Assembly (NCBI GenBank): GCA_963693315.1
Contig: OY856186.1
Location: 284,476,492-284,540,491, forward strand
Direction: 5' to 3'
Source: Diogma glabrata
Lineage: Eukaryota > Arthropoda > Insecta > Diptera > Cylindrotomidae
Length of the DNA stretch: 64,000 nucleotides
The stretch's first letter is position 1, and each line of letters starts with the position of its first letter. Positions 7,549 through 60,771 of this stretch are shown here, one piece after another. Below the pieces are notes generated by a model. It saw only the letters and a list, made by a program, of their open reading frames with translations, was not told where the DNA came from and searched no databases. The translations under genes and the position numbers were made by a program.

Positions 7549-7560
7549 AGCCGGGCATTC

Positions 7561-7677: not shown

Positions 7678-8464
7678 TTTCAAGCCTTAAAAGTGAAATA
7701 ACGCTAAAGCCTAAAATAACGAAATAGCCTAAAGTTATTATATCACTATTATTTCGAAAAACTACTTTGTGAAAATAATTTTCGAAAAAATATTTGACTA
7801 TTTCGTGTAAATATATGTAGTTTTATTTATGCAAATAATACAGAATCTTACTCGTACAAAAAATCTTGTATGCAATTCAGGCATAAAGTATCTTTTTTGC
7901 TTTCGAGTGATTGTTTCTCTCGAGCAACAATTTCACTCTCAAGCGGAAAAGACATACTTTATGCCCTTAATACATAAATAGCTATTTTTGTTACTTAAAT
8001 AAACTAAAAGTAACGAAAGCATATAATTATTCATAAATGTGTTTCCGAATGATCGTCGTTTACGTAGTCATAAAAAAATTAAAAATGATTTTATATATTA
8101 ATAACAATTATTCAACTATAATTCAACTATAAAAAAGGGATTTTTTCGGTTTTTTAATTTCCCCATTAATAAATAACAATTATTCAACGATAAATATGCA
8201 AATTACCATGAAAAAAGGGATTTTTTCGGTTTTTTCAATAAGTGATCCAAAACAGAACTCTGTAGGAGGAGTAGTTTTAAGAGGAATCGCAGTTAAAACT
8301 TTGGTTGTTTTTTTAAAAATATTAAATTTAACAACAACCGCTAAATATTTCCGTCCGACAAACTTACTGCCTTTTTGGAATAAATAGCGGTATATTTTGC
8401 CAAAGTTTGAGCTTCATAAATAGTGGAGTCATATTAGCATTTTATATTACATCAATATGAGCAA

Positions 8465-9215
8465 AGTTGAATTTTTTTTTTGTTTTATGTTAAGGACATA
8501 AAAGTTAGTGGGCATGTAATTATTTAGCAAATTTGGAGGTCCAGAAGTGCCTCAAAAATGGCAAAAACTGGTTTTTTGGTGCTTTTTGAGTAGGTCGCTT
8601 CACTGTTTTTGAAATATTTCGGGCTCTAATGATCATAAAAAAAAAAATGAAAAATGTTTGTGATTAAATTTCAAATCCATCTAGGGGGGTTAGATACTTT
8701 AAAAGTGTAACCTAACCTAAAAAAAACAAATCGCGTGACTTTTTTTTTTTACTAAATCTATGATAAGGGGCGGAAAAATCGTCGAATTTTCATGAAAATT
8801 TCAGGAAACATGTATTTTAATAGTCTTAATAAGGGATTTAATTTTTATGAAAAAATTTTAATTTTTTCGGCCACAATTGGCATTTTTCGTTAAATTTGGC
8901 AAATGGTGCCATTTTTTGCGAAAACATCCAAAATAAAAATTTTTTTTTAATCTGTACTTTTTTTATCTACTTTAACCTAAACAGAATTAAAATTATGTTG
9001 CCTTAATTTAAATGCCCATTTTTGGGCATGAAAAAAAACACTAATTTTTTTGACATTTTACCATATATACGGTATTATTTATGCTATTATCATGTATTTT
9101 GCATAAAAGTGAAATATGCAATTCAAATTAATAAAAAATATTTTTTAAAATTATACATAACCTACAAAACATTTTTTTCTTGCAATGGCCTAAATTGCTT
9201 TTGGTAAATAATTAA
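8465..9215 (-). repeat. repeat unit U, copy 1
   Basis: This ~750-bp unit runs (on the minus strand) from TTACCAAAAGCAATTTAGGCC to ATGTCCTTAACATAAAAC and includes GTATCTAACCCCCCTAGATG. Further copies are at 9,660-10,415 (+), 10,775-11,222 (+, internally deleted) and 13,566-13,980 (+, partial). No conserved reading frame is present across copies. Confidence 0.75.
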
Positions 9216-9568
9216 AATTAAACTAACAAAATATATGTCATAATAATCAAAAATAGCAGTTGAAGTAGTATATAAGTAATAGTTTAAGCAAAAATTGTAA
9301 TAATAATTTAAACTGAGGATGAGGTAAGTCGAAATCGATATTCAATAAAATAAAAAATCAAATTCAAATTGTTACTATAAGGAAGCTTATATTATTATTA
9401 ATAAAATAAAAATTTTAAAAATAAACAGCAAAAAGTATATTTTTAAATATTGCATTTTAATTCAAAAGTGACAAAAGCACACAAACAGTGAATAATATGG
9501 AAAACCATAATAACACATATAGAATTTTCAATTGAAAATATAATTGGCGTAAAATTATTTATGCTGTG

Positions 9569-10417
9569 TATTTTATATGTTTGAAAAATGTTTGAAAAAA
9601 ATTGATATTACGTTTTTTCAAAATCTTATATCAAATATTTACAACAATTGTAATAACATTTTAATTATTTACCAAAAGCAATTTAGGGCATTGCAAGAAA
9701 AAAAAGTATTGTAGGTTATGTATAATTTTAAAAAATATTTTTTATTAATTTGAATTGCATATTTCACTTTTATGCAAAATACATGATAATAGCATAAATA
9801 ATATCGTATATATGGTAAAATGTCAAAAAAATGCAAAAATTAATGCTTTTTTTTTCATGTCCAAAAATGGGAATTTAAATTAAGGCAACATAATTTTAAT
9901 TATACTTAGGTTAAAGTAGATAAAAAAAAGTACAGATTAAAAAATTTTTATTTTGGATGACTTCTCATAAAATGGCACCATTTGCCAAATTTAACGAAAA
10001 ATGCCAATTGTGGCCGAAAAAATTAAAATTTTTCCATAAAAATTAAATCCCATATTAAGACTATTAAAATACATGTTTCCTGAAATTTTCATGAAAATTC
10101 GACGATTTTTCCGCCCCTTATCATAGATTTAGTAAAAAAAAAAAGTCACGCGATTTGTTTTTTTTAGGTTAGGTTACACTTTTAAAGTATCTAACCCCCC
10201 TAGATGGATTTGAAATTTAATCACAAACATTTTTCATTTTTTTTTTTATGATCATTAGAGCCCGAAATATTTCAAAAACAGTGAAGCGACCTACTCAAAA
10301 AGCACCAAAAAACCAGTTTTTGCCATTTTTGAGGCACTTCTGGACCTCCAAATTTGCTAAATAATTACATGCCCACTAACTTTTATGTCCTTAACATAAA
10401 ACAAAAAAAAAATTCAC
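9569..10417. repeat. loop of the palindrome, filled by a second copy of unit U
   Basis: The 849-bp spacer is itself mostly unit U (9,660-10,415) in + orientation, inverted relative to copy 1 and direct relative to the copy in the right arm. It is more diverged than the two arms are from each other, for example GGGCATTGCAAG in place of GGCCGTTGCAAG, so it was present before the arms were duplicated. Confidence 0.75.
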
Positions 10418-11997
10418 ACAGCATAAATAATTTTACGCCAATTATATTTTCAATTGAAAATTCTATATGTGTTATTATGGTTTTCCATATTATTCACTGT
10501 TTGTGTGCTTTTGTCACTTTTGAATTAAAATGCAATATTTAAAAATATACTTTTTGCTGTTTATTTTTAAAATTTTTATTTTATTAATAATAATATAAGC
10601 TTCCTTATAGTAACAATTTGAATTTGATTTTTTATTTTATTGAATATCGATTTCGACTTACCTCATCCTCAGTTTAAATTATTATTACAATTTTTGCTTA
10701 AACTATTACTTATATACTACTTCAACTGCTATTTTTGATTATTATGACATATATTTTGTTAGTTTAATTTTAATTATTTACCAAAAGCAATTTAGGCCGT
10801 TGCAAGAAAAAAATGTTTTGTAGGTTATGTATAATTTTAAAAAATATTTTTTATTAATTTGAATTGCATATTTCACTTTTATGCAAAATACATGATAATA
10901 GCATAAATAATACCGTATATATGGTAAAATGTCAAAAAAATTAGTGTTTTTTTTCATGCCCAAAAATGGGCATTTAAATTAAGGCAACATAATTTTAATT
11001 CTGTTTAGGTTAAAGTAGATAAAAAAAAGTACAGATTAAAAAAAAAATTTTATTTTGGATGACTTCGCAAAAAATGGCACCATTTGCCAAATTTAACGAA
11101 AAATGCCAATTGTGGCCGAAAAAATTAAAATTTTTTCATAAAAATTAAATCCCTTATTAAGACTATTAAAATACATGTTTCACTTTTATGTCCTTAACAT
11201 AAAACAAAAAAAAAATTCAACTTTGCTCATATTGATGTAATATAAAATGCTAATATGACTCCACTATTTATGAAGCTCAAACTTTGGCAAAATATACCGC
11301 TATTTATTCCAAAAAGGCAGTAAGTTTGTCGGACGGAAATATTTAGCGGTTGTTGTTAAATTTAATATTTTTAAAAAAACAACCAAAGTTTTAACTGCGA
11401 TTCCTCTTAAAACTACTCCTCCTACAGAGTTCTGTTTTGGATCACTTATTGAAAAAACCGAAAAAATCCCTTTTTTCATGGTAATTTGCATATTTATCGT
11501 TGAATAATTGTTATTTATTAATGGAGAAATTAAAAAACCGAAAAAATCCCTTTTTTCGTGGTAATTTGCATATTTATAGTTGAATAATTGTTATTAATAT
11601 ATAAAATCATTTTTAATTTTTTTATGACTACGTAAACGACGATCATTCGGAAACACATTTATGAATAATTATATGCTTTCGTTACTTTTAGTTTATTTAA
11701 GTAACAAAAATAGCTATTTATGTATTAAGGGCATAAAGTATGTCTTTTCCGCTTGAGAGTGAAATTGTTGCTCGAGAGAAACAATCACTCGAAAGCAAAA
11801 AAGATACTTTATGCCTGAATTGCATACAAGATTTTTTGTACGAGTAAGATTCTGTATTATTTGCATAAATAAAACTACATATATTTACACGAAATAGTCA
11901 AATATTTTTTCGAAAATTATTTTCACAAAGTAGTTTTTCGAAATAATAGTGATATAATAACTTTAGGCATTGTTATTTCACTTTTAAGGCTTGAAAC

Positions 11998-12114
11998 CAC
12001 ATACAACGGAAACAGAAACCGAAACCGAATTTCATACAAATTTTACAGAAACCGAATTTTTATCTGTCAAATTTGTATGAAATTCGGTTTCTGTTTCTGT
12101 TTCCGTTGTATGTG
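11998..12114. mobile_element. palindromic MITE, right-arm copy
   Basis: Counterpart of the 7,561-7,677 element. It begins with ACATACAACGGAAACAGAAA and ends with the inverted form. It duplicated passively with the palindrome arm. Confidence 0.6.
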
Positions 12115-12404
12115 AATGCCCGGCTTTAGCATTGTTATTTCAATAGAAAAAAAGGCCTGCTTTATGTACAATTTTTGAATCGCAAAAGTGAATTTTACGG
12201 TTTACTCGTACAAAAAGTATTTTGATGACTTCTACGATCGTCGTACATGGGAGTTGGGATTGTTACTATCAAACAAAACATAAAAAATGCACATTCCCAA
12301 TATGCATTTAAGAACAATTTTAGTTTTTTACTCGAAATCAATTAGTTTACTAAACAAAATATAATCATACAATAGGTAGTGTAGTAGATCTACAATGATA
12401 TATA

Positions 12405-13176
12405 CGGGTTTTGCAGAGTGGCGTTCTTGCAAATTCTGGTCTGCAATATGGTCTGACATTACTATCGAGCAGGTTTTGATTAGGTGCATGCATAGTTAAG
12501 GAGGAGTAACACACGGCCGTGGGGTTTCGGAAAGTGTTTTGACTAATAAGCAAGCAAAGCAATGAAATAGAAGATTTTTGCAATGTGTCATTATTACATC
12601 AGAGCAGCACGTTGATGCAAGAGAGTCTCGCATAATGAGAGACGAGAGTGACATAAAAAAGTTATCTGATTTTTTAATCGATACAATCCGTTTCCCGAAT
12701 CATCCAATATCATGTCAATTTTTTCTGGAGTCAATTCTATCAACTGCCACAAAGCCTACAAAATCGGCAGAAAAAATTGGCAGAATCAATAGTTGGCAAG
12801 GACTTCGGCAGCGTATAATTCCAACGCAAAAACAAAGTTTTGTTGTTAAAAAGTATTGACTCTTCGATTAAAGTAAGTGATGAAAAGGTGACAATAAACC
12901 CTTTACTATTATTTCAAAGAATTTCTCTACAGATCAGTAATAAAAATGATATGAAGGATCACCTCAAACATGAACTTGCTCCGTACTCACTATCACTGTT
13001 TGCCGAAAACGGGTTTAACAAAGTGTCAAATCAGATTTGTATAAATTGTTTACGAGCGTTAATGAGTTGCCGGAGTACAATAATATAGTAGTGCATGTTG
13101 TCAATGGGGGTTTCCTATTACATGAAGTGGTGTGAAGCAAAAAACGATACAGTCGCAGTAATAAAAAAAAAGTACC
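12405..13176 (+). pseudogene. transposon-associated gene relic, right copy (5' half only)
   Basis: Inverted duplicate of the first half of the relic gene. It reads TIEQVLIRCMHS, then ITSEQHVDARESRIMRD, ELAPYSLSLFAENG and VHVVNGGFLLHEVV before ending at the TIR element boundary at 13,177. In-frame stops (after CMHS and within the AKQ.NRRFL segment) and frameshifts match those of the left copy, so the gene was already dead when it was duplicated. The PIN/XPG-like second half is absent. Confidence 0.6.
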
Positions 13177-13559
13177 TGTAACGTCCGCTATATTCACCTA
13201 AACAATAATAAAACCAATTCATCTTCTGTTTCTAATTCAATAAAAATTTATTTCAATACTTTCAGTTCATTTTTACATCAATAATAATTTTTTTTTTAAA
13301 TTTTTAAATAATTAACGGCCAGCTAAATTTCGAATATATTATAAAAATAAACGAACGTACCAATTTTATTTTCATTTCTAACGAACAGATGTCGTTACTA
13401 AATTTTTGCTGAATCTTGGTGTTGCACGATTTTCATTAGAAGATGTCAAAAAAATCACATTTTTTGTTTTTTATGAAGTCGATGTTTAAAAATTTGATAT
13501 ATAAAAAGATTCATTCCGGTTTTGGTTTTTCAAAAGATCACATCTAGTCAAAGTAAAAA
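13177..13559. mobile_element. solo TIR of the 1.5-kb element
   Basis: This is the single inverted-repeat end carried along with the right arm. It starts TGTAACGTCCGCTATATTC next to GGTA-containing gene sequence and is nearly identical to 4,971-5,357 and to the inverse of 6,115-6,497. The rest of the element is missing. Confidence 0.75.
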
Positions 13560-14110
13560 ATGAAAAAAATGAAAAACTAAAATTTTTCCATAAAAATTAA
13601 ATCCCATATTAAGACTATTAAAATACATGTTTCCTGAAATTTTCATGAAAATTCGACGATTTTTCCGCCCCTTATCATAAATTTAGTAAAAAAAAAAAGT
13701 CACGCGATTCGGTTTTTTGAGGTTAGGTTACACTTTTAAAGTATCTAACCCCCCTAGATGGATTTGAAATTTAATCACAAACATTTTCCATTTTTTTTTT
13801 TTATGATCATTAGAGCCCGAAATATTTCAAAAATAATGAAGCGACCTACTCAAAAAACACCAAAAAACCAGTTTTTGCCATTTTTGAGGCACTTCCGGAC
13901 CTCCAAATTTGCTAAATAATTACATGCCCACTAACTTTTATGTCCTTAACATAAACCAAAAAAAATTCAATTTTGCTCTTACATCAAATATATCACTTTT
14001 TTTTACTAATATGACTCCACTAAAAGTGTTTTTTGTCAAAGAAAAAAATTAAAAACCGGAAAATTAGTTTTTCGCCTTTTTTTCGAAAAGTTTTGAGGTT
14101 AGGGTAAAAA
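13560..14110 (+). repeat. partial unit U and outer fragment
   Basis: The segment 13,566-13,980 is a partial, diverged copy of unit U, containing GTATCTAACCCCCCTAGATG and ATGTCCTTAACATAAACC. The segment 14,020-14,105 is inverted relative to 3,290-3,370. These close the right edge of the inverted-repeat complex. Confidence 0.65.
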
Positions 14111-15996: not shown

Positions 15997-16733
15997 AAAT
16001 GGATGCTCCCTTAGTGTCATATTTGACATTTGAAAGGTTTTTGCACTATACAATATGGCCGCCGGTCCAAAATGGCGGCAATTATAGTGTAAGAACCTTT
16101 CTTGGTCTGAGACCTTTCCAACGATATATCATATGTGGTTTCTGCGGTGGAAAATTAATGTCATATTTGACATTTAAAAGATTTTTGCAAAATTCAATAT
16201 GGCGGCCAGTCCAAAATGGCGGCGATTATAGTCTAAGAACCTTGTTTGGCCCGAGACCTTTCCAACGGTATATCATATGTAGGGTCTGCGGTGGAAAATT
16301 AATGTCATATTTGACATTTAGAAGAACTTTGCAAAACTCAATATGGCGGCCAGTACAAAATGGCGGCAACTATAATCTAAGAACCTTCCTTGGCCCAAAA
16401 CCTTTACAACGATATATCATATGTACGGGGTCTGCGGTGGAAAATTAATGTCATATTTGACATTTAAAAGATTTTTGCAAAATTCAATATGGCGGCCGGT
16501 CCAAAATGGCGGCGATTATAGTCTAAGAACCTTCCTTGGTCCAAGACCTTTCCAACGATACATCATATGTAGGGTCTGCGATGGAAAATTAATGTCATAT
16601 TTGACATTTGAAGGGTTTTTGCAAAATTCAATATGGCGGCTGGTCCAAAATGGCGGCGATTATAGTGTAAGAACCTTCCTTGGTCCAAGACCTTTCCAAC
16701 GATGTATCATATGAGGGGTCTGCGATGGATCAT
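15997..16733 (+). repeat. 144-bp satellite, five units
   Basis: Units start at TGTCATATTTGACATTT at 16,015, 16,159, 16,303, 16,449 and 16,593, which gives periods of 144, 144, 146 and 144 bp, and end in a partial unit. Four units have two sites ATATGGCGGC and AAAATGGCGGC about 15 bp apart; in the first unit the first site is altered to ATATGGCCGCC. These match the published YY1/Pho-type consensus (core ATGGC). Because 144 is divisible by 3 the array stays open as a 48-residue repeat until the 2-bp insertion in unit 3-4; I read this as a by-product, not a gene. Confidence 0.85.
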
Positions 16734-25107: not shown

Positions 25108-28100
25108 ATGAGATATTTGGGGTGTGTGAAATAGATAAGCTCCTCGTGCTGCACCCTGGATTACGCAAATAGTCTATTTCAACTTGGTAACCAAACATTT
25201 CATTTCGAACTCTTGGCTGTGATACAAAAAAAAACAAAAAAAAAAAAAAATAAATATGAACCAAAATCACAATAACAACGGTACTTTTCAGCACCATAAG
25301 ACAAAAAATATTGGACCTTCAGTCCGTATTTTGCAATTGAACATTGAAGGCATAAGCAAGTCAAAAACTGAACATTTACAAAGATTATTAAAAGATTACG
25401 ACATCGACGTTATAATTCTGCAAGAAACGCATGCAGCAGATGAAGCGCAACTTACCTCTAGAGGAAACATTGTTGGTTACAAATTAATTAGTGCTATTTA
25501 CCATCAATCATATGGATCTGCCACGTATGTTAAGTCAGAAATCCTGAACTGCACGCACGTACTTACACAGACGGACAACGATATACATCTTATTGTTGTT
25601 GATATATCGGACACGAAAATTGTAAACGTATACAAGCCTCCAAATACAGGATGGCCAGCTGCTACTCTACCATTGTTTTATCATCCAGCAATATATGCTG
25701 GTGACTTCAATAGCCATCACACTCAGTGGTCCTACTCAAATAATAATACCAATGGCGTGCAACTGACCGACTGGGCGGATGATAACAACATGTTCCTGGT
25801 ATATGATGCGAAAGACTTGAAAACCTTTAGATCTGCAAGATGGCGACGTGATTACAATCCCGACCTCTGTTTTTCCACAAAAAACGGACAACGTAACCCT
25901 ATTCCAATATCTAGGGCTGTCTTACAAGGTTTTCCACGCTCTCAACATCGTCCAGTAATTCTTGAGGTAGGAATCCAAATTCCACTCGTTAATTCTACTC
26001 CTCAACCTAGATGGAATTTTAACAAAGCTGATTGGGATAAATATAGGATGAAGTTGGATGCAGTGATTCGCTGGATCCAACCCATTCCTAAAAATTACGA
26101 TAGATTTGTTGGAGCCATCATCTCAACTGCAAAGAAATGCATCCCAAGAGGCTTTCGTGAAGAATATATTCCTGGCTGGAGTAAAGAGAGCGATATATTA
26201 TATGAGGAGTACCTTAGTAGTGGTGAGGCAGACGTGGCTGATGACTTAATATACTCACTGGACGCCGCGAGAAAACAAAAGTGGATTAACGCTGTTGAAA
26301 ACATTGATTTTTCCCATTCAAGCAGGGAAGCATGGAGTCTCCTTCGGAAACTGGGTGGCTCAAACTCAATTACTCGTGCTAACAATGAAATAAATCCAGA
26401 AGACATCGCAAATCACATAGTAAATATGTCTCGTGCTTCTATTAATCGCCTTCATAAGAGAACAATTAAACGCAAATTAAGAGAAATGAAGCGCAATTGC
26501 TCGTCTCTATCCAAGTATGCGAACTCTTTTAGTAGCGAAGAACTAGAATCAGCTCTGTCCCAAACAAAAAACGGAAAAGCAGCTGGCTACGATGGCATTT
26601 TTCCAGAATTTCTTAAGAATGCTGGAAAAAATGTAAAACAGTGGCTAACTAAATTTTTCTCGAATGTCCTAGAAACCGGCAACCTACCAAAACATTTTAA
26701 GACTACGAAAGTGATAGCGATACTTAAGCCAGGTAAACCATCCAATGAACCAGGAAGCTATCGCCCGATTGCCCTTTTAAGCACCTGCTATAAATTGCTA
26801 GAGCGGCTCATATACAATCGTATCGCACCGATATTGAATGACCAGATCCCAGTTGAACAAGCTGGTTTTCGTCCCAATCGCAGTTGCACTGACCAACTGC
26901 TCGCTCTAACATCCTATATCGAAGCTGGGTATCAAAAACAACTAAAAACAGGCGCAGTATTCATCGATCTTACTGCAGCATATGACACGGTCTGGCGAAT
27001 TGGGATTATATATAAGCTGTTCAATGCAATACCTTGTAGCACCATCTCGCGTTTAATTAACAACATGCTGAGTAATCGTGTATTCAAAGTTCATCTAAAT
27101 AATTCCTGCAGTAGGTCTAAAATGCTTAACAATGGTTTACCACAGGGTTCCGTCCTGGCGCCATTACTTTTTAATCTGTACATCCATGACATTCCTGACA
27201 CAACATCAAAGAAATTTGGTTACGCTGATGATTGGACCCTGGCCACTCAAAACAAAGACATGGGTGTTTTGGAGGATTTGCTCTCAACTGACCTAGCGAT
27301 AATGAATGACTATTTTCGAACGTGGAGTTTATTTCCCAATCTAAGTAAAACCGAGAGCTCCTGTTTCCACTTAAACAACAAACTGGCAAAACACGAACTA
27401 TCAGTGTTATTTAACGGCACTGTCATTAAATACAATCAACAGCCAAAGTACCTGGGCATTACTCTCGATAGAACTCTTTCTTTTAAACTCCACCTAGAAA
27501 ATACGTCACAAAAACTTAAAACGAGAAACAATATATTGCACAAACTGGCAGGCTCTACATGGGGTGCTACTCCAGCTACCCTCCGAACAACTGCTCTAAG
27601 TCTGGTTTACTCAGTGGCTGAGTATGGCGCACCAGTCTGGTTGAATAGCACACATACTCAAAAAGTTGACTGCCAGCTGCATGCTACGATGCGTACTATA
27701 AGTGGTACTATCAGATCCACCCCTTTACCTTGGCTCCCTGTGTTAAGCAATATCGCTCCACCTGCACTCAGACGCTCGCATGCTCTCATGCGTGAACATA
27801 AAAAGGTAACCAACAACACCACGTTACCCTTGCACGAATATTACGGTGACCACACTCGTTGTCGATTGAAGTCAAGAAAGCCTCCACATAAAACTGCCAG
27901 CAACCTGCTGGCAACTGATTTTAATATCTTGGATGCCTGGGACACCTCCTGGCAACATTACAACACAACTGGCCTTTCTATTACTAACCCGACTTCTACC
28001 CAACCTGGTTTCGATTTGCCACGTCATACCTGGACTACATTAAACCGAATAAGAACGAATCATGGACGTTGTGCTGATTCTTTCTACAAGTGGGGCATTT

Positions 28101-28460
28101 CAGAGTCCCCTGAGTGTGACTGCGGCGCTCCACAACAAACTATAAAACACATTGCAACTGTGTGTCCAATTCGACGTTACAATGGCAACATCTCAGACAT
28201 CCATTTGGCAACTCCCGATGTAGTAGCATGGATAGACTCGCTCGATGTAAACATCTAATGTTCAAATGTACTGCCCAATGTTCAAATATTTTACTTTTTA
28301 ATTTACTTAAAAGACACGCAATCAAATCGATTGTAAGTTCATTTAATGTGTATCCATGTATTGTTTTAGGTAGATTTCACAGAAGAGTCTACCTATTTTT
28401 AAGTTTAATTTTTTTAATGTGTCACAAAAAAAACCATACGCTAAATAAATGAGATATTTG
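25108..28460 (+). mobile_element. complete 3.3-kb non-LTR retrotransposon with 12-bp target duplications
   Basis: The sequence ATGAGATATTTG occurs at 25,108-25,119 and again at 28,449-28,460. Between them lies an element (25,120-28,448) beginning GGGTGTGTGAAATAG and ending CGCTAAATAA, with one long ORF. The perfect duplication in the non-coding host repeat fixes both ends and implies a recent target-primed insertion. The 3' UTR (28,259-28,448) has a hairpin AGGTAGA...TCTACCT at about 28,368-28,395. There is no second ORF for a Gag-like protein, and the 3' tail is short and A/T-rich, not a long poly(A). Confidence 0.9.
25256..28258 (+). CDS. non-LTR retrotransposon ORF: AP endonuclease + reverse transcriptase, 1,000 aa
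   Basis: The encoded protein nicks target DNA and reverse-transcribes the element RNA. An N-terminal exonuclease/endonuclease/phosphatase domain (about residues 20-245) shows LQLNIEGI, LQETH, VNVYKPP, YAGDFNSHHTQW and SQHRPVIL. The reverse transcriptase domain (about 440-720) shows GKAAGYDGI, SYRPIALLS, AGFRPNRSCTDQ, FIDLTAAYDTVW, NGLPQGSVLAP and the catalytic GYADDW. A C-terminal zinc-knuckle-like CDCGAPQQTIKHIATVCP lies near 960. All catalytic motifs are intact and there are no stops. It is a Jockey/I-group relative by motif style; the exact clade needs a tree. The start is the first ATG after an A-rich stretch. Codon use and GC content are clearly richer than the surroundings. It is likely active or very recently active. 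Confidence 0.92.
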   Translation: MNQNHNNNGTFQHHKTKNIGPSVRILQLNIEGISKSKTEHLQRLLKDYDIDVIILQETHAADEAQLTSRGNIVGYKLISAIYHQSYGSATYVKSEILNCTHVLTQTDNDIHLIVVDISDTKIVNVYKPPNTGWPAATLPLFYHPAIYAGDFNSHHTQWSYSNNNTNGVQLTDWADDNNMFLVYDAKDLKTFRSARWRRDYNPDLCFSTKNGQRNPIPISRAVLQGFPRSQHRPVILEVGIQIPLVNSTPQPRWNFNKADWDKYRMKLDAVIRWIQPIPKNYDRFVGAIISTAKKCIPRGFREEYIPGWSKESDILYEEYLSSGEADVADDLIYSLDAARKQKWINAVENIDFSHSSREAWSLLRKLGGSNSITRANNEINPEDIANHIVNMSRASINRLHKRTIKRKLREMKRNCSSLSKYANSFSSEELESALSQTKNGKAAGYDGIFPEFLKNAGKNVKQWLTKFFSNVLETGNLPKHFKTTKVIAILKPGKPSNEPGSYRPIALLSTCYKLLERLIYNRIAPILNDQIPVEQAGFRPNRSCTDQLLALTSYIEAGYQKQLKTGAVFIDLTAAYDTVWRIGIIYKLFNAIPCSTISRLINNMLSNRVFKVHLNNSCSRSKMLNNGLPQGSVLAPLLFNLYIHDIPDTTSKKFGYADDWTLATQNKDMGVLEDLLSTDLAIMNDYFRTWSLFPNLSKTESSCFHLNNKLAKHELSVLFNGTVIKYNQQPKYLGITLDRTLSFKLHLENTSQKLKTRNNILHKLAGSTWGATPATLRTTALSLVYSVAEYGAPVWLNSTHTQKVDCQLHATMRTISGTIRSTPLPWLPVLSNIAPPALRRSHALMREHKKVTNNTTLPLHEYYGDHTRCRLKSRKPPHKTASNLLATDFNILDAWDTSWQHYNTTGLSITNPTSTQPGFDLPRHTWTTLNRIRTNHGRCADSFYKWGISESPECDCGAPQQTIKHIATVCPIRRYNGNISDIHLATPDVVAWIDSLDVNI

Positions 28461-33867: not shown

Positions 33868-34515
33868 AAAACCGTCTGAAAGTCCTAAGTATTACATTCT
33901 CGAGCCAAAAATGAAATTCTTACCCCATTTATCGGCATTTCTCGACGTTTAGGACTTATTGATTCTAAAAAAAACTGTATGTCTATCTGCCGTCACAACC
34001 GACGAAATCTAGAAAACCGCTGGAAGGGATTCAAAAATTTTTGTTTCTAAAAATAAGGTTACTCAATTGTAAGAGCCAAAAGGACGATGTGTTCGATAAC
34101 TGTACGGGAAGTGTGTCAAAACAAGGAAATTTGCATATTTTTTACTTAAAAACGTTCATTTTAAGTGATTACAAATAGGAACATTGAATTTGGAGAAATT
34201 TTGATGGTCGGTATTGGTATGTGAAACCTAAATCTAGATTATTGTATTATAAGTTTGTCAAAAAAATGTTGTCAAGTGTGTCAAAAGAATGATTTTCATT
34301 TTACTTAATTTTTTGGAACAATATGAAATTAATTATTTGTTTGACATGAAATGTTATCGAACATGAAATTGGACATGGAAATTTTTGATTTTGTTATAAT
34401 TTTTGGAATATTTTAAAAAATTTTGAATTTTGAAAAAAGTTTCAATCTTTGATTTTGTAATAATTTTTGGAATGTTTTTAGAACTTTAAAATTAATTAGC
34501 GTTGACATTTTTTGG

Positions 34516-34606
34516 TAGAGTTTATCTAGTCGGCTAGCCCTGATGAGAATGATAAACTTTTTTAAAGTTTAAAATTTTCTCATTGGTTCGAAACTAGATC
34601 GCTCTA
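34516..34606 (+). ncRNA. hammerhead ribozyme, satellite unit 1
   Basis: Self-cleaving RNA motif. In order: ATCTAG (34,524-34,529), cleavage dinucleotide TC with the cut expected after 34,531, stem I GGCTAGCC (34,532-34,539), core CTGATGA (34,540-34,546), stem II GAATGAT paired with ATTGGTTC (one bulged G) around a loop that holds an AAACTTT/AAAGTTT hairpin, core GAAA (34,590-34,593), then CTAGAT (34,594-34,599), which is the exact complement of ATCTAG. Stem III is prolonged beyond a small internal loop by TAGAG with CTCTA. All invariant core bases are present. Stem I can make only 2-3 bp within one molecule, so dimer pairing is plausible. Confidence 0.85.
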
Positions 34607-34970
34607 AAATTGTATGGATTGCAAAAAGTTTCATAATTTGCACCATAATTTTTTAGATTCAGTTCTTATATTATTCTTGATGGGAGATTTTCCATCGGGG
34701 TGATGTTATATCACAAATAATTTACTGAATTAATTGTTGATCATGTGTCAATAGACACAAGTGAAGACTAGTCATCTTCCTCTCACCGATACAAGTTTGT
34801 TATTCAATACTAGAATGTCTAGAGTATAACAAAACAGTGATCACCAGAGAAATTAATTGACTAAACCTGAATTTATTAAATGTATGTTTATGTAAATTTT
34901 TTGTTTTTACACTTCGCTAGAGTTGTAACCTAATTTTTGGTTTATATACATTAGCGTTGACATTTTTTGG

Positions 34971-35061
34971 TAGAGTTTATCTAGTCGGCTAGCCCTGATG
35001 AGAATGATAAACTTTTTTAAAGTTTAAAATTTTCTCATTGGTTCGAAACTAGATCGCTCTA
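34971..35061 (+). ncRNA. hammerhead ribozyme, satellite unit 2
   Basis: Identical core and helices to unit 1, shifted by 455 bp; predicted cleavage after 34,986. Cutting here and at unit 1 would release a 455-nt monomer. Confidence 0.85.
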
Positions 35062-35425
35062 AAATTGTATGGATTGCAAAAAGTTTCATAATTTGCACCA
35101 TAATTTTTTAGATTCAGTTCTTATATTATTCTTGATGGGAGATTTTCCATCGGGGTGATGTTATATCACAAATAATTTACTGAATTAATTGTTGATCATG
35201 TGTCAATAGACACAAGTGAAGACTAGTCATCTTCCTCTCACCGATACAAGTTTGTTATTCAATACTAGAATGTCTAGAGTATAACAAAACAGTGATCACC
35301 AGAGAAATTAATTGACTAAACCTGAATTTATTAAATGTATGTTTATGTAAATTTTTTGTTTTTACACTTCGCTAGAGTTGTAACCTAATTTTTGGTTTAC
35401 ATACATTAGCGTTGACATTTTTTGG

Positions 35426-35516
35426 TAGAGTTTATCTAGTCGGCTAGCCCTGATGAGAATGATAAACTTTTTTAAAGTTTAAAATTTTCTCATTGGTTCG
35501 AAACTAGATCGCTCTA
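35426..35516 (+). ncRNA. hammerhead ribozyme, satellite unit 3
   Basis: Identical core and helices; predicted cleavage after 35,441. Confidence 0.85.
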
Positions 35517-35879
35517 AAATTGTATGGATTGCAAAAAGTTTCATAATTTGCACCATAATTTTTTAGATTCAGTTCTTATATTATTCTTGATGGGAGATTT
35601 TCCATCGGGGTGATGTTATATCACAAATAATTTACTGAATTAATTGTTGATCATGTGTCAATAGACACAAGTGAAGACTAGTCATCTTCCTCTCACCGAT
35701 ACAAGTTTGTTATTCAATACTAGAATGTCTAGAGTATAACAAAACAGTGATCACCAGAGAAATTAATTAACTAAACCTGAATTTATTAAATGTATGTTTA
35801 TGTAAATTTTTGTTTTTACACTTCGCTAGAGTTGTAACCTAATTTTTGGTTTATATACATTAGCGTTGACATTTTTTGG

Positions 35880-35970
35880 TAGAGTTTATCTAGTCGGCTA
35901 GCCCTGATGAGAATGATAAACTTTTTTAAAGTTTAAAATTTTCTCATTGGTTCGAAACTAGATCGCTCTA
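35880..35970 (+). ncRNA. hammerhead ribozyme, partial satellite unit 4
   Basis: Complete ribozyme motif within a truncated unit; predicted cleavage after 35,895. The array ends about 65 bp downstream in AT minisatellite. Confidence 0.85.
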
Positions 35971-36428
35971 AAATTGTATGGATTGCAAAAAGTTTCATAA
36001 TTTGCACCATAATTTTTTAGATTCAGTTCTTATATTTAAATTTTTTATTTTATTTTAATTTTCAGAATATTTTTTGAATTTTGAAAGAACCATGAATATT
36101 TGGTTTGTAATATTTTTTTGAAATGGAGCGGTTTTTGAGTAGTTTGCTGGGTGTTTAATCTTTTCACTAAGTTATATTAATTTATGATCTGTTATAATTT
36201 TCCGGCACTTATTAATATTTCGTGTTAGTTTTGTAATAAATTTCTAAACAGAAATAAAAAAATATTTATACTTTAACAAAGAGTTTTATGTTTGATATTA
36301 CATTGCTGCCCAAAACTAAAAACCATGTCGTCATAAAAGTTTTTTGCCGAAAACTATATCAAAATCCTTAACCCAGACCGAAGTCTTGATATCTCAGAGC
36401 TTGAGATTTCAGTCCCTCCATATTTTAA

Positions 36429-38664
<2,236 letters not shown>

Positions 38665-45929: not shown

Positions 45930-46796
45930 ATTTTCATTAAACCGCGATACAACTTTACAAAACAATTAGTTTCGCAAATTTTGTTATGCATACAGTTAAC
46001 AATACCCACAACCTACTAATATTAAATCTTTAAAAATAACCAACATTACTCATTTTATTCAATCAATCACAATTATCATCAATTCCATCCTCTATCATAA
46101 TAAAAAATGTATATTTTAAATTTTTATAATATATTCAAAGAACAGTTTTGCCCTGATTCCATTTTAATCTTGTTATTTCTTTTAATTTTCAATTTCTTTT
46201 TTTATTGTAAAACTATTAATTAATTAATTTCTTTTTCAATAACAAAAGAAAGAACCAAAGTTTTATAATTTTATTATTATTAAAATGTTTCAACTTATTA
46301 TAAACATCAAAATTTCTTATATTTTTATGCACTATGCATATTGTAGATTGTATTTTCGAAAAAATAACGGATAACCTTTCTATATAGAAAATATATTTTT
46401 TTACAGGAAATGTATTTACTTAATTATAAATTCGATAAGCAAGAACTTATGGTATACCAAAAACAATTAAAAAGGTATTTACCAATAGTTTGATGACAAT
46501 AAAATTCACAAATAATTTATGTGAATATCGCCCACCAAATAAATGCGAAGATGTGTTGTGAATCATGTAATGATGTAATATCAGAAAAGATGAATTAAAA
46601 GAAATATTAAGTAAAAAAGTATTAAGTAAGTAAAATAAAGATTGATAAGTAAATAAGTTTTAATTTTTCATTGAAGAAAAGTTAACCTAACCTTCGACTT
46701 AAGTTTGATTTTTGTACATATATATTAAAATCGTCTAGGACAAGTGTCAGTTAATTGTTTTTCGTTATAATAGGTTTTGTTTTTGAAAAACAATAA
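45930..46796. other. 3' flank of P450 gene B
   Basis: Holds the flank sequence (46,035-46,205) that is duplicated at 41,876-42,060, and AT-rich DNA without recognisable features. Confidence 0.5.
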
Positions 46797-48980
46797 AAAA
46801 AATATGAAGAGACTAAAATCTCACAGCTCTGAGATATCAAGACTTCGGTTTTGGTTCAGGATTTTGATATAGATTTCGGCATAAAACTTTTATGACGACA
46901 TTGTTAGCTATCGGCAGCGATGTATATCAAACATAAAACTCTTTGTAAAAGCACAAGTATTTTATCTCTGTTTAGAAATTTATTACAAAACTAATACGCA
47001 ACATCAATTCGTCGCCGGAAAATTATAACAGATCATATATTAACATAATTTAGTGAAAACACTCAGCAAACTACTCAAAAACCTCTCCATTTAGCGTTTC
47101 GAGAAAAAATTACAAAATCACAAATTCATATTTCTTTCAAAATTCCAGAAATATTGTAAAAATTAAATAAAATCAAACTTTTTTCAAAATTCTAAAAATA
47201 TTCCAAAAATTATTACAAAATCAAAGATTAAATCTGTTTCCATAAATTCTAAAAATATTGCAAAAATTATAACAAAATCAAAAATTGAAACTTTTTTCAA
47301 AATTCCAAAAATATTCCAAAAATTAGAATAAAATCAAATATTTAAACTTTTTCTAATATTCCAAAAATTCTTAAAAATTCCAAAATTCAAACTAATTCCA
47401 ATATTCTAAAAATAATGCAAAAATTATAACAATATCAAAAATTGAAACATTTTTCAAAATTCCAAAAATTATAATAAAATCAATAATTTAAAATTTTCAA
47501 AATTCTAAAAATATAAGAACTGAATCTAAAAAATTATGGTGCAAATTAGTACTACGTACTAGTATTGAATAACAAACTCGTATCGGCGAGAAGAAGATGA
47601 CTAGTCTTCACTTGTGTCTATTGACACATATTCAACAAATAATTCAGTAAATTATTTGTGATATAACATCACTCCGATGGAAAATCTCCCATCAAGAATA
47701 ATATAATATTTACTGAATTATTTGTTGAATATGTGTCAATAGACACAAGTGAAGACTAGTCATCTTCTTCTCGCCGATACGAGTTTGTTATTCAATACTA
47801 GTACGTCTAGAGTATAACAAAACAGTGATCACTAGAGAAACTAATTGACTAAACCTGAATCTATTAAATATATGTTTATGTAAATGTTTGGTTTTTTATA
47901 CTTCGCTACAACTGTTGTAACCTAATTTTTGGTTTATATTTAGCGTTGACATTTTTTGTTAGTTTATCTAGTCGGCTAGCCCTGATGAGAATGATAAACT
48001 TTTCTAATGTTTAAAATTTTCTCATTGGTTCGAAACTAGATCGGTCGAAAATTGTATGGATTGCAAAAAGTTTCATAATTTGCACCATAATTTTTTAGAT
48101 TCAGTTCTTATATTATTCTTAATGGGATATTTTTCCATCGGAGTGATGTCATATCACAAATAATTTACTGAATTATTTTAAAAATATTCCAAAAATTCTT
48201 ACATAATCAAAATTGAAACTTTTTTCAAAATTCTAAAAATATATACATATATAAAATTCACATATTCAAAAATTCTATTTTTTTCCAAAATTCTAAAAAT
48301 ATTGCAAAAATTATAACAAAATCAAAAATTAAAACTTTTTCCCAAAATTCAAAAAATATTACAAACAGTCTGAAACAAAAGAGGTCTACTTTACTCCCTT
48401 AATACATAAATAGCAATTATTATTTTTATATATTTCTAGTCGAAAACCGAAGTAATGTTTCCCATAATATGTTTCTCAAAAAAATTGTGAAACAAAATAT
48501 ATGAAAATCTGTCTTTTGACACACTTAACGATTTTTTTTTGACATATTTCTAAAACAATAATTACATACGGATGCCTTACATACGGATGTCAATCATCCA
48601 GATTTCTCCAGATTCAAATTTACTACTCATTATCACTGAAAATAAACGTTTTTTTAGATAATCAAAAATATGAACATTTGCTATTTTTGACACACTTAGT
48701 GATTTTTTTGACACACTTCCGGTACAGTTATCAAACACATCGTCCTTTCGGACCTGACCATTGAGTACACCTATTCTTAGAAAAAAAATGTTTGAAATCC
48801 CTCCGGTTTTCTAGATTTCGTAGGTAATTACGGACGGACGGACGATAGACAGACATACATTGTTTTTAGAATCAGTGGGTCCTAAAACGTCGAGATATGC
48901 CAAAAAAGTGGGGATAAGAATTTCACTTTTGGCTCATGAATTAATTCAATACTTTGGTTTTTTTCAAAACCAAAGTAATT
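46797..48980. mobile_element. family R repeat, copy B (2.2 kb)
   Basis: The left end carries CTCACAGCTCTGAGATATCAAGACTTCGG-type sequence and the right end GACAGACATACATTG, AACGTCGAGATATGCC and a terminal hairpin CTTTGGTTTT...AAAACCAAAG at about 48,952-48,977. It is in the reverse orientation to copy A. The interior is an AT minisatellite (47,100-47,540 and 48,175-48,370) around a diverged 455-bp satellite unit, which is present as an inverted piece (47,545-47,705) and then a direct piece (47,706-48,175). Confidence 0.65.
47966..48041 (+). ncRNA. hammerhead ribozyme, diverged copy
   Basis: Stem III ATCTAG (47,966-47,971) with CTAGAT (48,036-48,041), cleavage expected after 47,973, stem I GGCTAGCC, core CTGATGA (47,982-47,988), stem II GAATGAT with ATTGGTTC, core GAAA. 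The loop of stem II and the outer flanks have changed (AATGTTT for AAAGTTT; the TAGAG/CTCTA extension is lost), while every core base and all three core helices are kept. Confidence 0.85.
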
Positions 48981-51889: not shown

Positions 51890-52501
51890 TGTGGCGAACA
51901 TCAAAACTAAAATCATTTTTCAAAAAACTAAAAATTTAGCAGGCGATGATTTCGTTAACATTTATTAAAAAAACAAAAAATATATTTTTATTATTCGGAT
52001 TTTGTTTTTTTCAAAAAACTATTTTAGTTTTTGTAAAACGTAACATACATTTTTGAATTAATAATTAAAAGTACAAATTTTTAGTATGTGTGTAACAAAA
52101 TCATATCTCTGTATAATAATAAGATAGACAATTATTTTTACTATCAATGGTATTCTTTTAATGTGAAAATAAGTCAAAATTCATTCGTATATGTCAATTT
52201 GATATAACACTAAAAAATTTATTGTAAACAAATTTGGCTTTCAATATATTATATTTAAAAATCAGCAATGGATATACGTTATTATATAATGATGAAGATG
52301 ATTAATTATCAGAAGGTGACAAAAAATTTAATAGAACCTGCCAAAAAAGAAATTACTGAAATTCAAGTTATGATGGATGGCAAAGTGTTAATAGAATCGC
52401 AACGCTATTTTTCTCTACTCTGTTCTACACAACTCTACTCAGCTTTACCCTACTCTGCACTACTTTATTTGCTCTATACACTAGCGAGAATAACAAGCTA
52501 T
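51890..52501 (+). repeat. 5' LTR
   Basis: About 612 bp. It contains a small frame beginning MDIRYYIMMKMINYQKV that is present in both LTRs but has no known motif, and a CTCTACTCTGTTCTAC / CTACTC-rich stretch near its end. Confidence 0.85.
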
Positions 52502-52504
52502 ATT

Positions 52505-52517
52505 TGGTGACCCCGAC
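52505..52517 (+). promoter_or_regulatory. primer-binding site
   Basis: TGGTGACCCCGAC, starting three bases after the 5' LTR. This is the place and style of the tRNA primer site used to start minus-strand DNA synthesis. Confidence 0.7.
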
Positions 52518-52848
52518 ATAGAACAACTCCAATGGAGTCAACTTTAAGAAGCTTAAAATGTATAATTTAATTAATTTTTTTTAAATTAGTGCTTCATTTT
52601 GTTTTAAATAATTTAATTTTATTATAATATTTTCTATTTTTTTTTCACAGCGACACAACACTTTTCCCTTAGTGACCACATATTCTTCCAACTAGTCGTT
52701 TCGACTGTTAAGCCATAATCTAGTTTTCTCCTAGCGACACATTCTTTTTTTTTTCTCCAAATTCTTATTTTTCGGCTTTGAAGGCACGCCAACTTCTTGC
52801 AGTGCGATCAATTTTTTAAAATTTTCTTTTTGTTTTTAAATCGATACC

Positions 52849-53400
52849 ATGGGCCGAAGTTTAAGATCTCCTTCCTTCGTAAGACCCATTACACTCTCCT
52901 TTACTCATGGGCCGAAGCTTTACAACTCTTTTCTTCGTAAGACCCACTACTCTCTCTTATACTATGGGCCGAAGCTTCACAACTCTTTCCTTCGTAAGAC
53001 CCACTTCATTGTCTGTTACTCATGGGCCGAATTAATCACCTTCTTTCTTCGTAAGACCCGCTCCAATCTCCTTAACTTATGGGCCGAAACAAATTTTTCG
53101 AATTTTCTGATTTTTTAATTTCTATCCCTAACGTTACCCATATGTTACCATAACGTTAACCATCTATCTGTTGACAAAACAGATATGGTCCTTATGGATA
53201 TAAAAATCAGATTTCATCTAATTAAGCAGAACCTCCAAATATCTGCTCTTAAAGGAATATCTCCAACGTTACCCATATGTTTTTACAACATGAACATCTT
53301 CTGACATTAACCATTTATCTGTTGACGAACAGGTATGGTTCTTATGGATATTTAAAACGACATTTCGTCGTTAATCAGATATTTCTTCTCAAAGCGATCT
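52849..53400 (+). repeat. internal tandem repeats of the LTR element
   Basis: ATGGGCCGAA recurs at 52,849, 52,907, 52,964, 53,022 and 53,079 (period 57-58 bp), each unit also having CTTCGTAAGACCC. Then a ~137-bp direct repeat with AACGTTACCCATATGTT lies at about 53,130 and 53,267. They replace the coding region expected of an autonomous element. Confidence 0.8.
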
Positions 53401-53959
53401 TTTTCTATGGTACACGTCTCCAAGGTAAACATTGGTTTCAGTCAACTTTGTACTGTCAGACTGTACCAAACTTGTGTTACCAAATGCACTCCTTTGCTTA
53501 CGCTAAATTTCTGCTTATTCTTGCTTTTAACAGCAACTTTTCGAAAAATGAGCTAATATTAACGTTTGTACATGCTAGTATTGTCTCAGTCAACTTTGAT
53601 CTGTCAGACATTCAGCATCACCGACGGTACTTTTCTGCTTCTCGTATTTTAAACGAACCTTTTAACCTATGGAACACATCTCCACAAATATTGGTCTCAG
53701 GCAACTCAGCTCTATCAGACCTATATCTCCACTCGTGTTACCATAACTCCATAATTGTTCGTTTCTTTTTCTTTTCTTTTTTTTTGCAGAAATCCAATTC
53801 GTAAGACCCATAATTTTTCTTCCACCAAATGGTATAGTTTTCCAAACAACATCACCAAACTTTTTCTTATTCGCTACAACTACTAAAGCAAAACTCTTTC
53901 CTTCTTTCCTCCTCAACTCTACCTAATTTCTTTATTTATATCGTTCCATCTTCAATGGC

Positions 53960-53975
53960 ACTAGGGGGGGAGTGT
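53960..53975 (+). promoter_or_regulatory. polypurine tract
   Basis: ACTAGGGGGGGAGTGT directly before the 3' LTR, the expected start point for plus-strand DNA synthesis. Confidence 0.75.
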
Positions 53976-54586
53976 TGTGGCGAACATCAAAACTAAAATC
54001 ATTTTTCAAAAAACTAAAAATTTAGCAGGCGATGATTTCGTTAACATTTATTAAAAAAACAAAAAATATATTTTTATTATTCGGATTTTGTTTTTTCAAA
54101 AAAATAGTTTAGTTTTTGTAAAACGTAACATACATTTTTGAATTAATAATTAAGAGTACAAATTTTTAGTATGTGTGTAACAAAATCATATCTCTGTATA
54201 ATAATAAGATAGACAATTATTTTTACTATCAATGGTATTCTTTTAATGTGAAAATAAGTTAAAATTCATTCGTATATGTCAATTTGATATAACACTAAAA
54301 AATTTATTGTAAACAAATTTGGCTTTCAATATATTATATTTAAAAATCAGCAATGGATATACGTTATTATATAATGATGAAGATGATTAATTATCAGAAG
54401 GTGACAGAGAATTTAATAGAACCTGCCAAAAAAGAAATTACTGAAATTCAAGTTATGATGGATGGCAAAGTGTTAATAGAATCGCAACGCTATTTTTCTC
54501 TACTCTGTTCTACACAACTCTACTCAGCTTTACCCTACTCTGCACTACTTTATTCGCTCTATACAATAGCGAGAATAACAAGCTAT
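53976..54586 (+). repeat. 3' LTR
   Basis: About 98 percent like the 5' LTR by eye; differences include ATAGTTTAG for CTATTTTAG, GTTAAAATTC for GTCAAAATTC and TTCGCTC for TTTGCTC. Confidence 0.85.
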
Positions 54587-54754
54587 AGATCTTCTCCTTT
54601 ATTATCTAGCTTTAAATATTTACACGATCCGGAGAAACCTTTTGTTACATATCTGAATTTTGTCAAACGTGTTCAAAAACAGAAGTTATTAAAGAAACCA
54701 AAACGTACTGGTTTCGTATTTTTTCTACAAACATTTAAAATGCCGTAAATTGAC
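54587..54754 (+). other. host sequence after the LTR element
   Basis: A frame reads SPLLSSFKYLHDPEKPFV and onward to a stop at 54,748. It joins the LTR frame only by accident. I do not recognise it. Confidence 0.35.
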
Positions 54755-58726: not shown

Positions 58727-60528
58727 AAAAAATATGAAGAAGCTGAAATCTCACAGCTCTGAGATATCAAGACTTCGGTTTTGGTTAAGGATTCTGATAT
58801 AGTTTTCGGCATAAAATTTTTATGAGGACATTGTTCTTAGTTATCGGCAACGATGCATATCAAACATAAAACTCTTTGTTAAACACAAGTATTTTTTTAT
58901 CTCTGTTTAGAAATTTATTACAGAACAAACACGAAATATCATTACGTTGCCGCAAAATTGTAACAGATCATAACTTAATATAACTTAATGAAAAGATGAT
59001 ACACCCAACAAACTGCTCAAAAACCTCTCCATTTAGCGTTTCAAGAAAATATTACAAAATCAAAAATTCATATTTCTTTCAAAATTCCAAAAATATTATA
59101 AAAATTACAATAAAATCAAAAACCTAAACTTTTTTTAAACTTCTAAAAACATTCCAAAAATTATTACAAAATGAAACTTTTTTAAAAATTCTAAAAATAT
59201 TGCAAAAATTATAACAAAATCAAAAATTGAATCTCTTTTTAATATTCTTAAAATATTGCAAAAATTATAACAAAATCAAAAACACAATTTTTTTTCAATA
59301 TTCCAAAAATTATAATAAAATCAAAAATTTAAATTTTTTCAAAATTTTAAAAATATGGCAAAAATTCACAATTCAAACAAACTTTTTTCAAAATTCTAAA
59401 AATATTTCAAAAATTAATTAACAAAATCATAAGAACAAACTTTTTTCAAAATTCCAAAAATTATAATAAAATCAAACATTTAAACTTTTTCAAAATTCTA
59501 AAAATATTCCGAAAATTCTTAAAAAATCAAAAATTGAAACTTTTTAAAAGCCTAAAATTATTGCAAAATTTCTTAACTCACAAATTCAAACTTTTTCCGA
59601 AATTCTAAAAATATTGCAAAAATTATAACAAAAACAAAAATACAAACTTATTTTAAAATTCCAAAAATATTTCAAAAATTATAACAAAATCAAATTTTCA
59701 AAACTCAAAAAATATTACAAAATCAAAAATTGAAACTTTTTCCAAATCGAAAATTCGAAATTCAAAAAACTTTTTCCAAAATTCTAAAAATATCGCAAAA
59801 GTTATAACAAAATCATAAATACGAACTTTCTTCAAAATTCCAAAAATTATAATAAAATCAAAAATTTAAACTTTTTCAAAACTCTAAAAATATTCCGAAA
59901 ATTCTTACAAAATCAAAAATACAATCTTTTTTCAAAATTCCAAAAATGTTTCAAAAATTAAAAGAAAATCAAAAATTTCTTGTTCGATAACATTTCATGT
60001 CAAACAAATTATTAATTTCATTTTTTTCAAACAAATGAGTAAAATGAAAATTATTGACACACTTGACACACATTGACACACTTGACAACATTTTTTTGAC
60101 AAACTAATAGTGTAATAATCTAGTTTTTTGTCTCACATACCAATCCCGACCATGAAGATTTCTCAAAATTTAATGTTCCTACTCGTAATCACTTAAAATG
60201 AACGTTTTTTAAGAAAAAAAATATGCAAATTTCCTTGTTTTGACACACTTGACGATTTTTTTGACACACTTCCGGTACAGCTATCTAACACTCTCTTACC
60301 ATTGAGTATACCTATTTTTTGAAACTCAAATTTTAGAAATCCACTCAGCCGTTTTCTAGATTTCGTCGGTTGTGACGGCTGGCCGGCAGACAGACATACA
60401 TTTTTTGTTTTTTGCTTTTTTAGAATCAGTAGGTCCTGAAACGTCGAGAAATGCCAAAAAAGTGAGTGTAGGAATTTAACTTTTGACTCGAGAATTCAAT
60501 ACTTAGGTTTTTTCAAAACCGAAGCAAT
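58727..60528. mobile_element. family R repeat, copy C (1.8 kb)
   Basis: The left end (58,727-59,060) is collinear with 46,797-47,110. The right end (60,040-60,528) has TGACACACTTCCGGTACAG, CAGACAGACATACAT and a terminal hairpin GGTTTTTTCAAAACC. The interior is only AT minisatellite (about 59,050-59,980) built from words such as AAAATTCTAAAAATATTGCA and ATTATAACAAAATC. No satellite and no ribozyme. Confidence 0.65.
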
Positions 60529-60771
60529 TGCATGATTTTATTAATTTTATTCAAATAATGTTTGAAAATTTCAATTTTCCGAAAAGTTCCATTAAGTAAA
60601 AGTAAGTCATCAACATACCTTGAATATGAAATATCCAAATTTGGATATTTATTAGAATTAGAAAGTGCAAATTAGGTCTAGTTTTTGCAAATAAAAATAC
60701 ATACTCTAATGTTTCATAGAATAACTAAAACTGGAAATAAATTTTCATTCCAAATAAAACAAGTTTTCCCA
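60529..60771. other. spacer
   Basis: AT-rich sequence between two family R copies; nothing recognised. Confidence 0.5.

Follow-up and report, generated by a model that had tools for sequence, protein, structure and literature searches.

A dispersed, non-coding 455-bp repeat with a hammerhead-like motif in Diogma glabrata, most likely inserted by Penelope-type reverse transcription

Does a tandem repeat that carries the letters of a self-cleaving ribozyme in each of its units spread with the help of that ribozyme, and which enzyme puts it into the genome? The question is raised by a stretch of 64,000 nucleotides of the dipteran Diogma glabrata (contig OY856186.1, positions 284,476,492 to 284,540,491), which we call the window. 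A sequence-only reading had described there a tandem 455-bp satellite with a hammerhead ribozyme in every unit, and had proposed that its transcripts cut themselves into 455-nt pieces that could circularise and possibly spread by reverse transcription.

The repeat array and its surroundings

The tandem 455-bp unit was confirmed by Tandem Repeats Finder, which reports 3.4 copies with a period of 455 bp and 99% matches between 34,495 and 36,036. The features discussed below are the following, with positions given in the window.

34495..36036, plus strand: one-armed element copy, 3.4 units of 455 bp (Tandem Repeats Finder, blastn of unit 1)
34495..34949, plus strand: unit 1 (blastn)
34950..35404, plus strand: unit 2, 1 difference from unit 1
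35405..35858, plus strand: unit 3, 2 differences from unit 1
35859..36036, plus strand: unit 4, partial, stops at the 176 end site
34524..34599, plus strand: hammerhead-like motif in unit 1, bounded by the two arms of stem III, CTGATGA at 34,540 and GAAA at 34,590
34,979-35,054, 35,434-35,509 and 35,888-35,963, plus strand: equivalents of this motif, same letters, in units 2-4
34657..34735, plus strand: two-hairpin domain (unit positions 163-241), closed by ATTCAGT/ACTGAAT, fold of -23.0 kcal/mol
47507..48178, no single strand: older-subfamily element copy, pieces 91-98% identical
47966..48041, plus strand: fifth hammerhead-like motif, in the diverged older-subfamily copy
33884-34491, 36041-36459, 46765-47177, 47120-48380, 58727-60547 and 61332-62977: AT-rich repeat family (Tandem Repeats Finder and blastn)

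The array begins on its left at unit position 1 and ends on its right at the 176 end site known from copies elsewhere in the genome (see below). In the older-subfamily copy the inverted left-hand pieces end at unit position 181 and the plus-strand piece ends at 241. Unit 1 carries the hairpin region that is commonest genome-wide, 91 of 110 young copies being identical to it over unit positions 10-125.

The G+C content is 0.287 over 34,001-36,000, and a frame search over the array found no open reading frame of 150 aa or more. On both strands the unit folds better than its shuffled versions (z of -4.54 and -5.36). No tRNA gene was found in the window by ARAGORN, and searches up to E 10 with the array and a 111-base stretch gave only sub-threshold matches to box C/D snoRNA and other Rfam families; the unit also contains words that we take to be weak A- and B-box-like elements. 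Exact patterns of the unit are absent from the viral contigs searched.

Several other repeats share the window. The AT-rich family, which includes 55-56 bp minisatellites, borders both element copies. A foldback complex at 4971-13981 has inverted 2.4-kb arms (6115-8505 and 11182-13559) that are 98.5% identical, with more direct and inverted pieces within and beside the arms and with short frames only. We also see a 144-bp tandem repeat in 5 copies at 16011-16729, and at 51890-54587 a 613-bp direct repeat with an intervening 57-bp tandem repeat. An open frame of 1000 aa at 25256-28258 belongs to a non-LTR retrotransposon and has endonuclease and RVT_1 domains.

Hammerhead letters and their predicted folding

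A descriptor search upheld the letters on which the ribozyme had been proposed: CTGATGA, GAAA, and TC next to the 6-bp ATCTAG/CTAGAT helix are complete in four successive units on the plus strand, and the predicted cut after 34,531 is correctly placed relative to them. The conserved core (CUGAUGA, GAAA and UH before the cut) is present in all four window units and in the copy at 47,966, and on the minus strand of the window the same descriptor finds no match. Stem I, between the cut site and CTGATGA, has 2 bp and a CUAG loop, or 3 bp if the loop is reduced to 2 nt. The stem II between CTGATGA and GAAA, which had been called fitting, has 4 bp (G-C, A-U, A-U, U-G) and closes a loop of some 35 nt.

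To judge these letters against chance, we simulated 1.478e9 bases with a first-order Markov model of the dinucleotide content of the window, a model that does not cover hairpin-rich real repeats. The core with a 6-bp stem III is expected 0.013 times per window, and the core with stems III, I and II of at least 5, 2 and 3 bp 0.0004 times (5 simulated matches); the combination of 6, 2 and 4 bp seen here did not occur at all in the simulated bases. The hammerhead letters exceed everyday chance for one window, although some such cases are to be expected if very many windows are scanned.

Covariance models and predicted folds give a different picture. No Rfam hammerhead family reached its gathering score across the window, and none appeared up to E 10 in the array and the 111-base stretch, so that the check proposed for the units by the sequence-only reading came out negative. 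In the genome, RF00008 gave 4 matches, none over the cut-off (68 of 148,208 candidates scored) and none similar to the 455-bp unit; the best of them, L031 (31.4 bits, E 0.045), looks tRNA-like by eye and was set aside. RF00163 gave 2 weak matches, again none over the cut-off (73 of 133,527 candidates scored). The best predicted fold of the 76-nt motif has -21.1 kcal/mol, against -6.9 for the fold constrained to a hammerhead, a gap of about 14 kcal/mol. Stem III has a predicted ensemble probability of 0.65-1.00, while stem I has 0.0017 and stem II 0.00, and three helices adjoining the core are not found together in the ensemble. The motif at 34524..34599 is also the base of a long rival hairpin, in which CTGATGAGAA is predicted to pair with TTCTCATTGG instead. 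What stands of the claim of a hammerhead in every unit are thus the letters; a working ribozyme is not borne out by Rfam or by the predicted folds.

Potentially, the motif could act in another form. Since GGCUAGCC is a self-complementary palindrome (predicted duplex of -14.8 kcal/mol), a dimer sharing stem I is conceivable; the predicted dimer still leaves CTGATGA inside the rival hairpin. A type I, Penelope-like reading of the unit, with a cut after unit position 106, was rejected, since by eye its stem I has 3 bp in the older copies and 1 bp in young ones.

Sequence change among the copies speaks to both structures. The genome holds two age cohorts of the element that are about 95% alike, and the 44 older copies, several of which come from the same locus, differ little. 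Among them are two compensatory double changes, one in L063 (A9 to G, unit positions 52/86) and one in L064 (G10.1 to A, unit positions 53/85), which preserve the rival hairpin but disrupt the hammerhead; stems I and II of the hammerhead show no double change. Each of the two is confined to a single unit of its old copy, and in L064 the other of the two units lacks it. They could reflect selection on the RNA or, as likely because they are private to single units, template switching in the hairpin; they may be template-switch corrections of an imperfect palindrome. The 13-nt core is intact in 30 of the 44 older copies, and in decaying copies it is no better kept than its surroundings (15 changes in 572 positions vs 62 in 2768). 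On the other hand, none of the 15 differences between the old majority and the young sequence (453 covered positions) falls into the 76 nt, where 2.5 are expected, which might be taken as a weak sign that the motif is conserved.

These observations bear on a first explanation of how the repeat spreads, namely that it is a true retrozyme: the hammerhead of each unit cuts the array transcript, the resulting 455-nt circles form, and these are reverse transcribed. The weakness of the single motif might be rescued by a dimer with an 8-bp stem I formed by GGCUAGCC, by CUAG after GAAA serving as stem III as in small Penelope hammerheads, or by help from a protein. Precedents exist, since hammerheads in the pLTRs of Penelope elements are published, amphibian hammerheads are active as dimers and one Penelope hammerhead is inactive without its protein. 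This explanation is also favoured by the exact match to the 13-nt core next to three stems, a combination seldom produced by chance, by the palindromic GGCUAGCC and by the missing old-young differences; against it stand the empty Rfam searches, the energy gap, the improbable stem II, the hairpin that holds CTGATGA in the dimer and the double changes that favour this hairpin. We doubt that the letters cleave in the cell, and regard the full retrozyme pathway as possible but rather unlikely. It is compatible with the reading that we prefer below.

Dispersed copies, their ends and the enzyme that inserts them

Next, we asked how the element is arranged elsewhere. In the 1.328-Gb genome from which the window comes the unit has at least 291 matches (40 of 341 candidate places scored), and the matches listed are 99-100% identical. 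We read 20 loci of the young cohort and 12 of the older one, whose search scored 40 of 2053 candidates. Of the young loci, 18 (17 of them independent) are two-armed, with minus-strand units followed by plus-strand units; 6 of the older loci are two-armed with the same pair of ends, and the other 6 are one-armed or interrupted. Tandem units in head-to-head arms are therefore found in 24 of the 32 fetched loci.

The outer ends of these copies are fixed. In all 24 two-armed loci one end lies at unit positions 176-184 and the other at 239-252, as determined by blastn extension, which chance matches can carry too far. These ends differ in sequence and are not inverted copies of each other, and the junction at the second end varies by several bases. 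At the inner junction the 17 independent young insertions differ from each other: the arms overlap by as much as 26 bases or are separated by at most 49 extra ones. No poly-A or other simple tail was found at the element ends in the loci read. Both end sites, 176 and about 241, are surrounded by the two-hairpin domain, which on the evidence of its predicted fold and position is likely to be a start-site structure for reverse transcription.

The flanks are unrelated between insertions, except for L047 and L048, which lie 5 kb apart, share flanks and junctions, and differ in that L048 has one unit fewer. This pair is a local duplication with loss or gain of one unit, and because of this difference we conclude that the unit number can change after insertion. 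Of 23 two-armed insertions compared (17 from the young cohort and 6 from the older), 22 have a word of 9-14 bp in common between their own two junctions, part of which can be element sequence, whereas a word of at least 9 bp is found in 9 of 506 mismatched pairs of left and right flanks. The exception is L065, with a wrongly placed 7-bp word. The one-armed copy L042 has a 12-bp target duplication and an arbitrary 5' end, and an 8-bp duplication is seen by eye at the one-armed L061. No target duplication was found at the junctions of L041 or of the window array, and the one-armed copies L056, L057, L063, L064 and L066 lie outside the set with resolved duplications.

It follows that the name satellite does not suit the element: the window copy is one-armed, and the copies elsewhere are dispersed, mostly palindromic and flanked by duplicated targets. 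An ordinary satellite would have grown in place by unequal exchange without transposition, which agrees with the tandem order and with the change in unit number between the shared flanks of L047 and L048; the scattered places with unrelated flanks, the fixed outer ends and the duplicated targets speak against it. For the dispersed copies read this explanation is refuted, and for the element as a whole we give it practically no credit. The proposed spread by reverse transcription, by contrast, gains support from the arms, the fixed ends and the duplicated targets.

A foldback DNA transposon such as FB or Tetris, with tandem-repeat inverted arms and moved by a transposase in trans, would likewise give palindromic arms built of tandem repeats, arms of variable length and target duplications near 10 bp. 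We consider this very improbable: the outer ends differ in sequence instead of being inverted copies, one-armed copies have one arbitrary end (L042 with a target duplication as well), and the second-end junction varies by several bases.

What was the template? The arms cross unit borders and the predicted cut, and the longest, in L051, comprises six whole units and parts of others. This points to a multimeric or circular template, or else to growth of the array at a later time. That the arms run many times round the unit is what a retrozyme would give; yet no inner end lies at the cut itself (unit position 37/38), the nearest being at 31 and 54. Variants relative to unit 1 are mostly restricted to single units. 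One variant each is common to both arms in L040 and L046, and variants common to two units of one arm are found in L047, L051 and L054; among the insertions compared, none is common to all units. Variants that some units of an insertion have and others lack do not fit a monomer circle, unless changes came afterwards. The pattern agrees with a single template for each insertion, or with subsequent exchange between the arms, rather than simply with a monomer circle; a circular RNA template would be compatible with it.

We then looked at the Penelope-like elements of the host. Of 4129 first-look candidates for the GIY-YIG domain 150 were scored, and the domain is over the cut-off at all 150 places listed. 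Among these, 43 have a neighbour within 10 kb; the neighbour pairs at this distance are divergent in 16 cases, on the same strand in 9 and convergent in none. On one contig the same-strand spacing is 2868-2869 bp, and one open frame carries both RVT_1 and GIY-YIG. This is the tandem Penelope-like array on contig C598 at about 2.6-17.1 kb, with six GIY-YIG places at that spacing; the stretches L087 and L088 hold one unit of it. We also note the 241 end of a copy of the 455-bp unit at L091 1-55, in AT-rich DNA a few hundred bases from a Penelope-like insertion.

One divergent Penelope insertion could be read completely. Its ends lie at L087 positions of about 664 and 619, a distance of about 45 nt, and its two junctions have a 15-base word in common that is partly element sequence; a second insertion, of which one end was reached, ends at about 663. 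To judge from this single case, the 455-bp element follows the two-end rule of a host Penelope element. The unit has no significant match to the one Penelope family read. The Penelope stretch L087 is without CTGATGA, and by eye its positions 476-515 resemble a degenerate type I hammerhead-like stretch.

Since the two-end rule and the head-to-head grammar of the unit recur in the host Penelope elements, Penelope-type insertion is the best explanation. We think it quite probable that the 455-bp unit forms the repeats of a mobile element that is dispersed and non-coding and is likely copied from multimeric or circular RNA by a host Penelope-like reverse transcriptase. An array would be transcribed into multi-unit RNA, which is perhaps cut and closed into a circle. 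To judge from the ends, a Penelope-type protein would cut both target strands about 10 bp apart and start reverse transcription within the RNA, at unit position 176 on one strand and at about 241 on the other. As the copies show, each arm may pass unit borders before the two join head to head at a variable place, the junction word is duplicated at the ends, and both cohorts use the same two ends. The enzyme would be supplied in trans, because the unit has no long reading frame.

Some observations sit less easily with Penelope-type insertion. No similarity was found between the unit and the one Penelope family read; the end sites of the unit are about 65 nt apart, whereas that family has about 45 and published elements 30-40; for the host elements the two-end rule comes from a single fully read insertion; L065 has no placed duplication and most one-armed copies have no resolvable one; and some tandem order may have arisen after insertion, as the one-unit difference between L047 and L048 suggests.

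Alternatively, a LINE-type enzyme could copy the RNA by ordinary target priming together with twin priming on the second strand. The window itself holds a LINE frame of intact length with endonuclease and reverse transcriptase (25,256-28,258), the variable junctions show microhomology, and twin priming, which occurs in LINEs, offers a precedent. We find this explanation improbable, as both start sites are fixed and always paired one of each, the ends lack poly-A and any simple tail, and the same grammar is found in the host Penelope elements.

Within Penelope-type insertion, a more specific scheme can be imagined, to which we give limited credence. Each unit would carry a minimal hammerhead that is active only as a dimer, through the 8-bp stem I shared by GGCUAGCC, or together with the Penelope protein; the RNA would be cut and closed, and a Penelope enzyme would copy the circle repeatedly from both strands of one target at the two start sites, giving a palindrome of tandem repeats. 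If true, this would be the first insertion-level proof of Penelope elements moving hammerhead repeats, and new palindromic satellite DNA could arise from it in one step.

Relation to known systems

The mover of animal hammerhead repeats has been in question. In 2020, autonomous Penelope elements were called "a strong candidate" as movers of metazoan retrozymes, in the available part of PMC7229834, and the 455-bp element makes this proposal testable. It offers Penelope enzymes a 455-nt substrate with two predicted start sites and shows how a palindromic tandem array may be laid down in one insertion. Cleavage by the motif can be tested directly, alone, as a dimer or with help from the protein; if the hammerhead is dead, the case would show that such repeats can spread without cleavage. 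In the open-access literature, as far as its available text goes, we found no description of palindromic, Penelope-signed hammerhead repeats.

The closest likeness is to the Penelope/Poseidon clade. According to the parts of PMC11167929 available to us, the Anolis Penelope protein cleaves and extends both strands from two adjacent internal starts, which gives a "tail", and the Anolis hammerhead is inactive without the protein and dispensable for insertion in vitro. For rotifer Penelopes, the available text of PMC3846280 describes inverted pLTRs, a 31-bp tail and duplications of 8-10 bp. As far as these two sources go, the 455-bp element resembles the clade in its tandem and inverted copies, two internal starts, tail at one end, preference for AT-rich targets with short duplications near 10 bp, and hammerhead motif upstream of the starts. 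It differs from autonomous Penelope-like elements in lacking a reverse transcriptase or GIY-YIG frame, in its unit of 455 bp and in the about 65 nt between its ends; with the pLTR of the one Penelope family compared here it has no significant match.

With metazoan retrozymes, as described in the accessible parts of PMC7229834 and PMC7761336, the element shares a non-coding low-GC tandem repeat, hammerhead letters and target duplications of more than 4 bp. The unit agrees with their size of some 150-450 bp, low GC content and lack of coding capacity, and its junction words reach at least 9 bp in 22 of 23 two-armed insertions. Unlike the retrozymes in these descriptions, it has palindromic two-armed copies, and its letters are of a closed-stem-I (type III-like) form with a 2-bp stem I instead of an Rfam-recognised type I hammerhead.

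Tetris of Drosophila virilis, in the portion of PMC4079207 at hand, likewise has inverted arms of satellite-like tandem repeats; the 455-bp element is unlike it in that its outer ends are not inverted repeats and its one-armed copies have an arbitrary end. There is also a likeness to the W-elements of Schistosoma, which, so far as the available text of PMC8490949 describes them, are transcribed tandem repeats near 400 bp, some with hammerheads, and have a possible target duplication; their hammerheads are of type I and tested, whereas the 455-bp element has head-to-head arms and a putative hammerhead. Seen against these systems, the 455-bp repeat is a non-coding element that most likely owes its insertion to Penelope-type reverse transcription and carries a hammerhead-like motif of putative function.
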